Source: Salinibacter altiplanensis (GTDB lineage: Bacteria > Bacteroidota > Rhodothermia > Rhodothermales > Salinibacteraceae). From it: 64,000 bases of DNA. This document shows positions 54,185 through 61,586 of this stretch, piece by piece; position 1 is the stretch's first letter; each line of letters opens with the position of its first letter. A program made the translations under genes and the position numbers. The stretch spans positions 88,901 to 152,900 of the forward strand of contig NZ_NCQY01000002.1 of assembly GCF_002894645.1 (NCBI RefSeq), given 5' to 3'. A model generated the notes under the pieces. The model did not search any database. It worked only from the letters and a program-made list of their open reading frames with translations, and was not told where the DNA came from.

Positions 54185-55489
54185 TTACGCCCGGACGCCC
54201 TCCTCGGGCACCCCGGTGGCCGTCTCGGTCTCAGGGTGGTTGCTCCACTCGTACCAGCCGCCGTCGTAGACCGAAATGTTCGGCCACCCCATCAGGTACG
54301 CGTTCATGAACGCCTCGCTGCCCCGCCAGCCCGTGCCGCAGTAGAAGGCAATGTGCCGGTCCGGCGTGATCCCCATTTCGGCCCACTTCTCGGCGATTTC
54401 CGAAAACTCCCGCGTCGTATAATCGAAATTGCGGTAGTTCTCCATGTGGTAGGCGTCGCTTCCACAGTTGCCGAACACCGCCCCCGGAATGCGCCCGGTC
54501 TTGTCGATGTAGTGGTAGCCGCTCCGTTCGCCAATAAACTCCGCCCAGCTCCGCACGCTGACGAGGTCTCTGTCGTCGGCATCCAAGAACTCCCGGGCCC
54601 CGTCGAGGGTCAGCATGTACTCCGGGTGGGCCGGCACTTCCGCCCCAAAGTCCCCCACCGGCTCCGGCTCTGCGTCCGTGGTCGACACGTCGTACCCGGC
54701 GGACTCCCACGTGTTGATGCCGCCGTTGAGAATCCTGACGTCTTCGACGCCGGCGTAGAGCATCAGGGCCGCACACCGCATGGCCCCGAGGTGGCCTGCG
54801 CTCTGGGCGGGGTAGTCTTGGTCGTACGTCGGGTACGAGAAGCGCCCGTAGAGCACCACGGTGGTGTCGTGGCGAATGCCGTGGTCCTCGAGGGCGCGCT
54901 TCAGCTCCGCCGGTGGGCGCCGATTCCAGGTCTCGGGCGACTCCAGGGCATTTGTGTTGAGCGGGATGGCGCCGGGGATGTGGCCGTCCTCATAGTCCTG
55001 GCGGTACCCGAAGTGGGTGTGACACAGGACGTACTCGTCGCCGTTCATCTCAGGGGGCTCCGTGCCGGAAATGAGGCCCTGCACCCACTCCGGGTAAACG
55101 AGCTGCCGGTACCGCTGCATGCGCCGAAGAGGCCGATCTGGATCGGATGTCCACTCGTCCAGAAAGCCGCCGTAGACGCCGACGGCCTCAAAGCCGAGTC
55201 GCGAGAGCTTGTTCGCCATCTCCGCGGCGGCGTCTGCGGTGTAGCCGTATACCGTCACGGGCATGTCCCGCGACAGGCCCTTCTCGTCGAGCACCTCTAC
55301 CCAGTCCATGTACTGCGTCCACTGGAGCGGCAGGCTCTTGGCGCCCGGCACGTGTCCACTCCGGGACGCGTCTCGGAGCGGCCATCCATTGTACGCCGCG
55401 ATGGGGCGAACGTCCAGGATGGTGTGATCGGGGTCCTCGGCCTGCAGGGCGAAGGTGTCGGTGGAAACGGTGGAGATCGTTTCTTCCAT
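54185..55489 (-). CDS. Three-domain rhodanese-type sulfurtransferase
   Basis: 434 residues with three rhodanese modules. Domain 1 (about 1-140; ILDVRPIAAYNG, HVPGAKSLPL) has VYGYTADAAAEM where the active-site Cys should be. Domain 2 (about 145-290; DGHIPGAIPL) has VVLYGRFSY, again without Cys. Domain 3 (about 305-430; VSVRSWAEFIG, GRIPGAVFGN) has the intact loop YCGTGWRGSE. Two inactive modules probably stabilise or recognise partners. It resembles thiosulfate sulfurtransferases but is longer than the usual two domains (about 280). Start ATG 55489; the frame to 55645 is an extension. Confidence 0.88.
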   Translation of the reverse strand: MEETISTVSTDTFALQAEDPDHTILDVRPIAAYNGWPLRDASRSGHVPGAKSLPLQWTQYMDWVEVLDEKGLSRDMPVTVYGYTADAAAEMANKLSRLGFEAVGVYGGFLDEWTSDPDRPLRRMQRYRQLVYPEWVQGLISGTEPPEMNGDEYVLCHTHFGYRQDYEDGHIPGAIPLNTNALESPETWNRRPPAELKRALEDHGIRHDTTVVLYGRFSYPTYDQDYPAQSAGHLGAMRCAALMLYAGVEDVRILNGGINTWESAGYDVSTTDAEPEPVGDFGAEVPAHPEYMLTLDGAREFLDADDRDLVSVRSWAEFIGERSGYHYIDKTGRIPGAVFGNCGSDAYHMENYRNFDYTTREFSEIAEKWAEMGITPDRHIAFYCGTGWRGSEAFMNAYLMGWPNISVYDGGWYEWSNHPETETATGVPEEGVRA

Positions 55490-55904
55490 CAGTATGGAGA
55501 GCGAAGCGTGGGAACGGCGAATATTGCGTCCACGAACTTGAGGAAATCGACGACAAGACGCAACTTCCCAGAGCGATTCCTGACCGTCGGAAAGCGGAAA
55601 AACCCGCAACGACCTTTGGGGCGAAGGGGCGGCGCCGCTCCTCAAATGGAGATCTAGAACTCAGCTTCGGCGGCGCTTCAGTGGGGGGCGAGTCTGTTGC
55701 TCGTGGGATATTTCTGGCATCGTGTCCGTCCCAAATGGGCCCTCCGGCCTCATGGCTCAAGTAAGCGTGTGGTACGTACGAGCGGTCCTCTTGCACGTCG
55801 CCCTCGGGGCAACAGCGGGGGCGTGAAGGTTGGCGGCTTCAGGAGGGCCTGGGCTGGCGTTCCCCTTGCCGATCCGGCCGCTACACCTGGAGGTCATGCT
55901 CCTC

Positions 55905-57638: not shown

Positions 57639-59009
57639 ATGCCCATCGTCCATGACCTCGCCAATTTCGTCGACACCGCCACGTACGACGACCTCTCCGA
57701 CGAGGCCAAGAAGCAACTGAAAGTGCGCGTCCTCGATTCCCTCGGGTGTGCCATCGGTGCCCTCGATGGCGGGCCGATCCGTGCGCTCCGCGAGCACCTC
57801 GCTGACTTTGGTGGGGCCGAGCACGCCACCCTCGTCGGTGGCGGGCGAACAGCGCCCGACCGCGCGGCCCTTTACAACAGCGCGCTCGTTCGCTACCTCG
57901 ACTACAACGATAGCTACCTTGCGGAGGGCGAGACGGGTCACCCCTCGGACAACCTCGGCTCGGTACTGGCCGCGACCGAGTACGCGGGCGGCTCCGGCGA
58001 AGACCTCCTCACGGCCCTCGCGGTCGCGTACCAGGTGCAGTGCCGCCTCAGTGACGAGGCGCCGGTGCGGGCCAAGGGCTTCGACCACACGGTGCAGGGG
58101 CAGTACGCCGCGGCGGCCGGGGCGGCGAAGGCCCTCGGCCTCGATCCCGAACAGATTGCCAATGCCATCGCCATTAGCGGCACCGCCCACAACGCCTTGC
58201 GCGTGACCCGGACCGGGGAGATTTCGAACTGGAAGGGATTGGCCTACCCGGAGACCGGGTTCACCGCCACCCACTCGGCCTTCCTCGCGATGCGCGGCAT
58301 TACCGGCCCGCCCGAGGTGTTCGAGGGCAACAAGGGCTTCAAGCACTCGATTGCGGGCGACTTCGCGCTCGACTGGAGCGAGGAGGATCTGGAGCGGGTC
58401 ACCGGCACGATCATCAAGAAGTACAACGCCGAGATCCACTCGCAGGCCACCCTGGAGGGGGCACTGGAGCTGAAGCGCACCCACGGCATCGACCCGTCGA
58501 CCATCGACGAGATTGAGGTCGATACCTTCGACGTGGCCTTCCACATCATCGGCGGGGGCGAGGAGGGAGACAAGACGATCGTCCGCCGCAAGGAGGAGGC
58601 CGACCACAGTCTGCACTACATGACGGCGGTGGCGCTTCTGGACGACCAGGTGCTGCCTGCCCAGTACGAACAGGACCGCATCGAGGCGGGCGACGTGCAG
58701 TCGCTTCTCCGGAAGGTGCATGTCACGGAGAATCCTCAGTACAGCGACCGCTTCCCCGATCACATGGTGTGCGACGTGCGCATCCATGCCGACGGGCAGG
58801 TCTACGAGATGCACAAAGAGGACTACGAAGGCTTCCACACGAAGCCGATGACGTGGGACACGGTGTCAGAGAAGTTTGCACGGCTGGCCGAGCCCTACAC
58901 CGATGCTGCGCTCCGACAAGACCTGATCGACGCTGTGCAGGAGCTGGAGACATTTCCCGCCGGCGACCTCTTCGATCTCCTGTCCCGCGTGCAAACGCCC
59001 GAAATGTAG
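57639..59009 (+). CDS. MmgE/PrpD family protein (2-methylcitrate dehydratase-like)
   Basis: A 456-residue protein. Family features: VRVLDSLGCAIGALDGGPIR near the N-terminus, LVRYLDYNDSYLAEGETGHP followed by SDNLGSVLAA, and the helical-domain segment AIAISGTAHNALRVTRTGEI with SNWKGLAYPE. The C-terminal alpha/beta domain contains SLHYMTAVALLDDQV. PrpD dehydrates 2-methylcitrate in propionate catabolism, but no prpB/prpC lies nearby, so another substrate (as in cis-aconitate decarboxylase-like or MmgE relatives) is possible. It is followed 72 bp later by a ComA-like gene on the same strand. Confidence 0.91.
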   Translation: MPIVHDLANFVDTATYDDLSDEAKKQLKVRVLDSLGCAIGALDGGPIRALREHLADFGGAEHATLVGGGRTAPDRAALYNSALVRYLDYNDSYLAEGETGHPSDNLGSVLAATEYAGGSGEDLLTALAVAYQVQCRLSDEAPVRAKGFDHTVQGQYAAAAGAAKALGLDPEQIANAIAISGTAHNALRVTRTGEISNWKGLAYPETGFTATHSAFLAMRGITGPPEVFEGNKGFKHSIAGDFALDWSEEDLERVTGTIIKKYNAEIHSQATLEGALELKRTHGIDPSTIDEIEVDTFDVAFHIIGGGEEGDKTIVRRKEEADHSLHYMTAVALLDDQVLPAQYEQDRIEAGDVQSLLRKVHVTENPQYSDRFPDHMVCDVRIHADGQVYEMHKEDYEGFHTKPMTWDTVSEKFARLAEPYTDAALRQDLIDAVQELETFPAGDLFDLLSRVQTPEM

Positions 59010-59033
59010 CGAAGACCTCTCATCCTCACGCAA

Positions 59034-59054
59034 AGACGCGGCGCCGCCGCGTCT
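59034..59054. other. Perfect intercistronic hairpin between PrpD-like and ComA-like genes
   Basis: AGACGCGGC (59034-59042) and GCCGCGTCT (59046-59054) form an exact 9-bp stem with a 3-nt GCC loop, 27 nt before the next start codon. No T-run follows, so it is more likely an mRNA processing or stability element than a terminator. Confidence 0.55.
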
Positions 59055-59081
59055 CAATGCTCACAACCAAGCAACCGTACC

Positions 59082-59927
59082 ATGAGTGACCAAACGACCG
59101 GCGATCCCCGACGTGCTTTTCAATTTCTCGACCTCAACGACCGCGGCGAGAAGCCCCGCGACGTGGGCATTACCGAGATCCGCGGCCCCTACTACAGCCC
59201 AATGGGCCCCAACTACTTGGACGATGTCCTTTCTACAATGGGGCACTATGTCGACAGCCTCAAGTTTGCGGGCGGCTCCTTCAGCCTGATGCCGGAGGCG
59301 GAGGTGCAGGCTCTGCTCGACAAGGCCCACGACCACGACGTACTGGTCTCCACGGGCGGCTTCATGGAGTACGTGCTCACGCAGGGAGACGATGCGGTGC
59401 ACCAGTACATCGACGAATGTGCCCGCCTCGGCTTTGACATCATCGAGATCTCTGCGGGCTTCATCACGCTCCCCACGGACGACTGGGTGCGCCTGATCGA
59501 GCTCGTGCAGGAGGCCGGCCTGAAGGCCAAGCCGGAGGTGGGCGTGCAGCACGGTGCCGGCGGCGGGGCCACCACGACTGAGGAGCTGGAGCAAATTGGC
59601 CAGCAGGACCCGTCGCAGGCCATCACCCGGGCCAAGCGCTTTCTGGAGGCGGGCGCCTACCAGATCATGATGGAGAGCGAGGGCATCACCGAAAACGTGC
59701 CGGAGATGCGGACCGAAATCCCGGCGCAGTTTATCGACGAGCTTGGCCTGGAGAACCTGATGTTCGAGGCGGCCGACCCGCATGTCTTTCCGTGGTACAC
59801 CCAGAACTACGGCCCGGAGGTGAACCTCTTCGTGGACCACAGCCAGATTGTGCAGCTCGAATGCCTGCGCAGCGGCATCTGGGGCCCGCACGACCTCTTT
59901 GGCCGCGTTCAGACGTTCAAAGGCTAG
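59082..59927 (+). CDS. Phosphosulfolactate synthase-like (ComA family) protein
   Basis: A 281-residue TIM-barrel protein. Family features: KPRDVGITEIRGPYYSPMG at the N-terminus, VDSLKFAGGSFSLMP, VLVSTGGFMEYVLTQG, FDIIEISAGFITLP, and EAGAYQIMMESEGITEN. ComA joins sulfite to phosphoenolpyruvate to give phosphosulfolactate, the first step of coenzyme M synthesis in methanogens. The family also includes plant HSA32-type proteins of other function. In a sulfonolipid-containing lineage the reaction could supply sulfolactate or sulfopyruvate, but neighbouring comB/comC were not found. It is encoded after a PrpD-like gene and ended by a strong terminator. Confidence 0.88.
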   Translation: MSDQTTGDPRRAFQFLDLNDRGEKPRDVGITEIRGPYYSPMGPNYLDDVLSTMGHYVDSLKFAGGSFSLMPEAEVQALLDKAHDHDVLVSTGGFMEYVLTQGDDAVHQYIDECARLGFDIIEISAGFITLPTDDWVRLIELVQEAGLKAKPEVGVQHGAGGGATTTEELEQIGQQDPSQAITRAKRFLEAGAYQIMMESEGITENVPEMRTEIPAQFIDELGLENLMFEAADPHVFPWYTQNYGPEVNLFVDHSQIVQLECLRSGIWGPHDLFGRVQTFKG

Positions 59928-59992
59928 GGCTTTCACCCACATCGGCGATGGCGGGTTGATGTCCGCCGTTGAAAGACGTGAGCAGGAAATGA

Positions 59993-60028
59993 GGGCGGGA
60001 GGAATGTTCTATCCTCCCGCCCTTTCTG
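59993..60028 (+). terminator. Intrinsic terminator after the ComA-like gene
   Basis: GGGCGGGAGGA (59993-60003) and TCCTCCCGCCC (60012-60022) form a perfect 11-bp stem with an 8-nt loop. TTTCTGTG follows on the plus strand. The position, 65 bp after the stop codon, fits a rho-independent terminator of the PrpD/ComA-like unit. Confidence 0.88.
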
Positions 60029-60895: not shown

Positions 60896-61586
60896 TCAGG
60901 CCCTCGTGCGGGCGTGAGGAAAAAGAATGTTGTTTTCCTTGTGCACGTGCTGGTGCATGTCGGCCTCCAGTTCGTGGAGGCCTTTCAGGGCCGAACGAAG
61001 TTTGGGGCATGCGCTCTCTGGGAGGGGACATAGTCGTTCGTCGGCTCTCGAAGACGGTCCAGGGCGACTCGGGAGTCGTCGTGCTCGCGGATCATTTTGT
61101 CGACGCCGTTCTCGTCTAGGAAAGCGCCCGAGGCTTCTTCTTTGAGGGCCCGAATTGAGGGAAAAATGCGCTCCTCCTCGCTCACCATGTGCGTGCTGAG
61201 GTCCAGCTTAAGGGTTTGGAAGACCTCCAGTGTGGGGGCGAGCCAGGAGTGCCCGTCGCCGTGTGCCTCCACTACCTGGATCAACAGGTCCTCGAGCCGA
61301 GGGAGCTCACGGCACAGGCAGGAGGGATGGGGGGAAACGATGTGGTCGATCAAGGCGGCGAGAGACTTCTCCGTTCAATCGACGGCTCGGCAGGAAGGAG
61401 AGGCCCTGACGGTCACGTCCAACATCTCGGTGACGGTGGCCGGGTCGAGGTTCTTCTCGCGGCACGCAGTGGCCAGGGAGTGATCGCCTCCACAGCAGTA
61501 ATCGAGGCCGAGGTGTTCGAAAATGTGGGCCCGGCCGGGCCGGTCGATCACGAGTTGGGCGACGGGGGAGTGGGGGAGATGCTCAT
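60896..61586 (-). pseudogene. Broken RIC/ScdA (YtfE-like) di-iron repair protein gene
   Basis: The minus strand encodes AQLVIDRPGRAHIFEHLGLD followed by YCCGGDHSLATACREKNLDP, the ScdA N-terminal (DUF542) domain. An in-frame TGA follows at 61377-61375, where a Trp codon is likely. The same frame then continues with the hemerythrin-like domain (LIDHIVSPHPSCL, HGDGHSW, HMVSEEERIFPSI, REHDDSRVALDRL). Near 61014-61020 an AG dinucleotide repeat shifts the frame; after a 2-base correction the sequence goes on to LHELEADMHQHVHKENNILF and stops at 60896. The only ATG (61586) is also out of frame with the DUF542 part. RIC proteins repair Fe-S clusters after nitrosative stress; this copy appears recently inactivated. 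Confidence 0.82.

Follow-up and report, generated by a model that had tools for sequence, protein, structure and literature searches.

A conserved, laterally spread gene pair coding for a PrpD-type protein and a divergent ComA-fold protein in Salinibacter, haloarchaea and methanotrophs

Two neighbouring genes of Salinibacter altiplanensis, one coding for an MmgE/PrpD-family protein and the other for a divergent relative of phosphosulfolactate synthase (ComA) that is here called ComA2, form a pair that is conserved and has spread between bacteria and archaea. Both are genuine, intact genes that evolve under purifying selection. The best reading of the pair, to which we give a probability of about 0.5, is a module spread by lateral transfer whose two enzymes, a dehydratase of PrpD type and a lyase or conjugate-addition enzyme with the ComA fold, would act on one small carboxylic acid.

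The gene pair in the window

The window is the whole stretch of 64,000 nucleotides that was analysed. Both open reading frames were recovered on one strand, separated by a short gap with a hairpin (Table 1), as a preliminary description of this DNA had reported. The first protein carries both Pfam domains of the MmgE/PrpD superfamily (MmgE_PrpD_N, 249.5 bits; MmgE_PrpD_C, 141.8 bits) together with its conserved H/K positions and is thus a member of it. The second scores 261.4 bits against PF02679, for which the cut-off is 25.2, and belongs to that family. In comparisons with five relatives, Ka/Ks was 0.09-0.12 in PrpD and 0.05-0.13 in its ComA-like neighbour, and these low values indicate that both members of the pair are functional genes.

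Table 1. Features of the gene pair (positions in the window)
Feature	Position	Strand	Details
MmgE/PrpD-family hydro-lyase gene, first of the pair	57639-59009	+	456 aa; PF03972/PF19305
GC-rich hairpin, perfect 9 bp, inside the 72-bp intergenic gap	59034-59054	+	fold; one occurrence in the window
ComA-fold protein gene, ComA2 (possibly HSA32-like) subfamily, second of the pair	59082-59927	+	281 aa; PF02679
Terminator-like hairpin 3' of the pair	59991-60024	+	13 pairs, T-rich tail

The strong terminator that had been described behind the pair does correspond to a site, listed in Table 1, but the region holds three such sites against 4.4 expected in shuffled sequences, so that the terminator scan is by itself no evidence. 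As for the hairpin in the gap, a counterpart was present in one relative locus (L047) and none was found in six others (L046, L048, L049, L050, L051 and L054). Its candidacy as a conserved regulator was rejected, since it is missing in most relatives and lies outside the conserved unit.

Few clear genes flank the pair on either side. A short gene of the RIC/YtfE type, known for Fe-S repair, lies 1 kb downstream on the opposite strand (window 60985-61353); its product scores 74 bits, below the cut-off, and apparent gene remnants are found close by. Upstream, also on the opposite strand, a protein with three rhodanese stretches is encoded at window 54185-55645.

Conservation and lateral spread

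Among 244 genomes of the class, 33 were found to carry ComA2, and in 26 of these the gene is immediately preceded by PrpD in the same orientation. The seven others are six Rhodothermus-like genomes (group g2), one of which (G289) was viewed with a 1.5 kb flank only, and a genome of Salinibacter type (G312); they indicate that ComA2 can stand alone. Four of the six Rhodothermus-like genomes were searched and each has another PrpD elsewhere, 31% identical. In G312 (L140 6486-7208) the first 39 residues of ComA2 are missing or replaced and no PrpD is nearby. The pair was also present in 8/8 further loci, which come partly from the same genomes as the class survey.

Full-length ComA2 at 56% identity or above was found in 20 plasmid records, namely Salinibacter ruber pSR116, haloarchaea and methanotrophs, two of the records being from the same Methylosinus strain. 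Carriers of the pair include haloarchaeal megaplasmids and methanotroph plasmids. Eighteen of the 20 records also hold a PrpD that is about 42% or more identical, against a background in which a PrpD match at this cut-off (about 42%) occurs in just 273 of 72,556 plasmid records. The two genes lie within 200 bp of each other in ten of the 18 records and at 0.7-34 kb in the other eight, all of them haloarchaeal. The preliminary view that the two genes form a pair is thus borne out by both surveys. Viral contigs yielded no relative.

Several loci retain one half of the pair. In Natrinema halophilum, ComA2 is kept next to a decayed PrpD, and in Halorussus pelagicus it is PrpD that is kept and ComA2 that is reduced to a fragment. 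In Natrinema gelatinilyticum no PrpD was found within 8 kb on either side of ComA2. The Halorussus pelagicus remnant adjoins a gene for the RNA-guided protein TnpB (L078 5001-6926), which suggests that a mobile element disrupted this ComA2. Over 25 loci, the distance matrices of PrpD and ComA2 are correlated with r = 0.95, a raw value that is uncorrected for the species tree.

Divergence of ComA2 from canonical ComA

The same genome holds a second, canonical ComA (G000:C19; 289.5 bits), whose closest solved relative is the ComA of Bacillus subtilis (E 3.6e-58). The canonical enzyme is common in many genomes of the phylum, including genomes without ComA2. The window protein is 25-29% identical to canonical ComA and about 21-29% identical to the ComA of Methanocaldococcus jannaschii (1qwg) and B. 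subtilis (1u83), which are its closest solved structures and with which it shares the PF02679 family model, the TIM-barrel fold and acidic residues. A predicted model of the window protein, built with 9 rows (mean pLDDT 72.7), matched 1qwg best, with Z 23.9 and rmsd 3.2 over 227 residues. Other TIM barrels, namely PEP mutase, methylisocitrate lyase and HMG-CoA lyase, tie at Z of about 14 and reflect the common fold only. In the tree, ComA2 is split from canonical ComA with 100/100 support and long branches, and it does not cluster with characterised ComA.

Residues were compared in an alignment of 47 ComA2 rows and 32 canonical rows, the latter comprising M. jannaschii, B. subtilis, Xanthobacter and 29 sequences from the phylum, a few of which are the same gene twice. 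In M. jannaschii numbering, K137, R170, K209, Q212, N227 and R244 occur without exception in the canonical rows (32/32), and 47/47 ComA2 rows have Q, E, P, F, F and W at these sites. The five basic or polar residues K137, R170, K209, Q212 and R244, which we take to be catalytic, K137 being presumably the active-site lysine, are therefore retained in none of the 47. Moreover, the RE.G loop is lost and residues are inserted behind the EVG strand in every ComA2 row. On the other hand E79, E103, E133, E168, E205, E237, K43 and R240 are kept in 47/47 ComA2 rows, and these retained residues argue for a working active site in ComA2. As the ComA fold is kept and the basic and polar sites are replaced, ComA2 appears unlikely to join sulfite to phosphoenolpyruvate (PEP). 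Such a fixation of sulfite had been proposed in the preliminary description, which let the matter turn in part on the catalytic residues of sulfite-using enzymes, and it is on these residues (0/47 against 32/32) that the proposal founders.

Against TIGR03849, for which the cut-off is 280, ComA2 scores 85.9, the genome's own canonical ComA 229.4 and the Xanthobacter enzyme 325.7. Because the canonical ComA of the genome also falls under it, this cut-off was not used as a sole argument. The coenzyme M cluster of Xanthobacter likewise has a ComA-fold gene beside the gene of a lyase-type enzyme. Unlike in the window pair, however, its ComA is canonical and over the cut-off, and its partner belongs to the fumarate-lyase family and not to PrpD.

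On nearly every plasmid record, ComA2 is annotated as phosphosulfolactate synthase. Public records thus name both genes of the pair after enzymes that they probably are not, and haloarchaea and Salinibacter may in consequence be wrongly credited with a sulfonate pathway.

The PrpD partner

The window PrpD is the sole PrpD homologue found in its genome. It belongs to the same family as the 2-methylcitrate dehydratase PrpD 1szq (E 1.5e-26) and cis-aconitate decarboxylase 7br9 (E 9.2e-18), and the HPSDN, DH, K and H.Q positions of these enzymes are conserved in it. It differs from them by a signature of its own (APVR, LRVTRT and IIGGG.EG) and stays far under the NCBIfam prpD equivalog cut-offs, with 122.5 bits against 458, 147.8 against 575 and 154.3 against 950. 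The LRVTRT motif is present in 40/40 paired PrpDs and is missing in four PrpDs of Burkholderiales or Bradyrhizobium whose records lack ComA2. In two haloarchaeal PrpDs from plasmids that carry no ComA2, the motif reads LRVTRT or LRVART.

Sulfonate and methylcitrate pathways

ComB, for which the preliminary description had proposed a search, was found in 6/6 genomes tested, with or without ComA2, and canonical ComA and ComB already supply the sulfolactate route in this genome. No archaeal-type cysteate synthase scored over the cut-off in six genomes searched with an archaeal-type query. According to PMC11211663, Bacteroidota begin the synthesis of sulfonolipids with phosphoserine and use cysteate synthase, not ComA. 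The earlier idea that the pair supplies C3-sulfonate to sulfonolipids was rejected, given the loss of the ComA residues in ComA2 and the separate canonical ComA and ComB.

A methylcitrate cycle was rejected as well. PrpB (methylisocitrate lyase) had no match in the genome (G000), which argues that the pair does not form such a cycle, and the PrpD scores point the same way; PrpB was found over the cut-off in genomes G003 and G008. The preliminary remark that the pair falls outside the known routes stands: we know of no pathway that matches the combination of PrpD and ComA2, and no paper in the literature collection searched mentions both phosphosulfolactate synthase and PrpD.

A possible link to plant HSA32

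A provisional, non-database sequence of the plant protein HSA32 shares 35-44% identity with ComA2 rows and, in full-length alignments, about 20-27% with canonical ComA rows. In the tree, this provisional sequence groups inside ComA2, together with the methanotroph proteins. That plant HSA32 has its nearest prokaryotic relatives in ComA2 is therefore a lead that depends on the provisional sequence. To our knowledge, no PrpD partner of the plant protein has been described. HSA32 is termed a phosphosulfolactate synthase-related protein in a passage of PMC3162933, and a passage of PMC11840417 describes it as a plant protein that stabilises HSP101 and prolongs heat-acclimation memory; these passages mention neither an enzymatic activity nor bacterial relatives of HSA32.

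A wider proposal is tentative. It sees in the pair a mobile metabolic module, so far undescribed, of halophilic bacteria, haloarchaea and methanotrophs and in ComA2 the prokaryotic source group of HSA32, so that the heat-memory protein of plants might be, or descend from, an enzyme working beside a PrpD-type dehydratase. If the link to HSA32 is true, the biochemical role of the plant protein becomes testable.

Genomic setting

In 16 loci from genomes that we take to be Balneolaceae-type, the pair lies in islands with genes for RIC-like Fe-S repair proteins (13/16), ferredoxin (12/16), DUF2249 proteins (11/16) and nitrite-reductase-like proteins (6/16). Heme-copper oxidase genes also occur there, and each island family was found in 3-13 of the 16 loci. 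The searches used queries taken from the same loci. None of these families was found in 40 control stretches, a small set placed at round coordinates in a few ComA2-bearing genomes, or in 12 haloarchaeal loci. A NorB-type gene lies near the Methylosinus pair. A nitric-oxide island as the general setting of the pair was rejected, as it is a lineage feature, mostly Balneolaceae-type, that is absent from the haloarchaeal loci.

In a Salinibacteraceae MAG (L051 1-2238), a PEP synthase gene (TIGR01418, 1041 bits) ends 31 nt upstream of PrpD. It is a possible hint at the substrate, and its candidacy as a third gene of the module was rejected because it occurs at one locus only. Island, NorB and PEP synthase neighbours are all taken as hints only.

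Proposed reaction of the pair

PrpD-family enzymes, which are not known to use iron-sulfur clusters, form alpha,beta-unsaturated acids or hydrate them. In the ComA reaction, a nucleophile is added across the double bond of an enol, a conjugate-addition-type step on PEP. Taken together, the two chemistries suggest a dehydration plus a conjugate addition, or the reverse. PrpD would remove water from, or add water to, a small hydroxy-polycarboxylate, and ComA2 would probably add a nucleophile to, or cleave, the unsaturated acid that is the product or the substrate of PrpD. We infer in this way that both proteins are catalytically active and share a pathway, as well as the type of reaction.

The reading of the pair as a module draws on its adjacency in the class, its co-occurrence on plasmids, the correlated distances, the broken halves, the low Ka/Ks, the LRVTRT motif of paired PrpDs, the retained acidic residues of ComA2 and the PEP synthase of L051. 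Against it speak the seven genomes in which ComA2 has no adjacent PrpD, the wide spacing in eight of 18 plasmids and the single-locus occurrence of the PEP synthase neighbour. The pair offers a tractable bacterial and archaeal system for finding the chemistry of the ComA2 fold.

Alternative explanations

ComA2 could still be a genuine phosphosulfolactate synthase and provide the C3-sulfonate of sulfonolipids, being of the same Pfam family as ComA and having the M. jannaschii and B. subtilis enzymes as nearest structures; sulfonolipids were also reportedly described in Salinibacter by Corcelli in 2004. We consider this very improbable in view of the five lost invariants, the low TIGR03849 score, the canonical ComA that is present in this genome and widespread in genomes without ComA2, and the occurrence of ComB regardless of ComA2. 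Even less credit is given to an accidental adjacency of the two genes or an artefact of plasmid hitch-hiking. Many copies do sit on plasmids and flanking genes vary by locus, yet order and strand are constant across class genomes, methanotroph plasmids and haloarchaeal plasmids despite these changing flanks, and the plasmid co-occurrence and class-wide adjacency counts already contradict such an origin.

Two other explanations separate the roles of the proteins or dispense with catalysis by ComA2. Under stress from oxidants or nitric oxide, PrpD may take over from aconitase or 2-methylcitrate dehydratase as an enzyme without an iron-sulfur cluster, the role of ComA2 being separate. The LR..R element of paired PrpDs that is also found in E. 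coli PrpD, the Balneolaceae-type islands, whose genes did not occur in the control stretches, NorB near the Methylosinus pair and the RIC-type gene close to the window pair are in line with this. It is nevertheless rather unlikely, because the genome is without PrpB, PrpD is far under the equivalog cut-offs, the island genes are missing from the haloarchaeal loci, the control stretches are few in number and drawn from a handful of the same genomes, and the tie to ComA2 is left unexplained. Somewhat less likely again is a ComA2 that acts as a non-enzymatic stabilising partner, with PrpD as its possible client or partner, in the way that HSA32 stabilises the chaperone HSP101 and prolongs heat-acclimation memory (a passage of PMC11840417). 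The position of the provisional HSA32 sequence inside ComA2 fits this idea. However, acidic and aromatic barrel residues are strictly conserved across two domains of life, which is more typical of catalysis, and the annotations of the neighbouring genes, as far as they were read, showed no ClpB/HSP101.

Further copies of the two genes

Two additional arrangements were observed. A decayed second copy of the C-terminal part of ComA2 is found in the same genome as the window, at G000:C29:279827-279985 (L040 7828-8139), where 53 residues are 92% identical. Finally, a Halalkalicoccus plasmid carries four consecutive MmgE/PrpD genes (L065 2495-8350).
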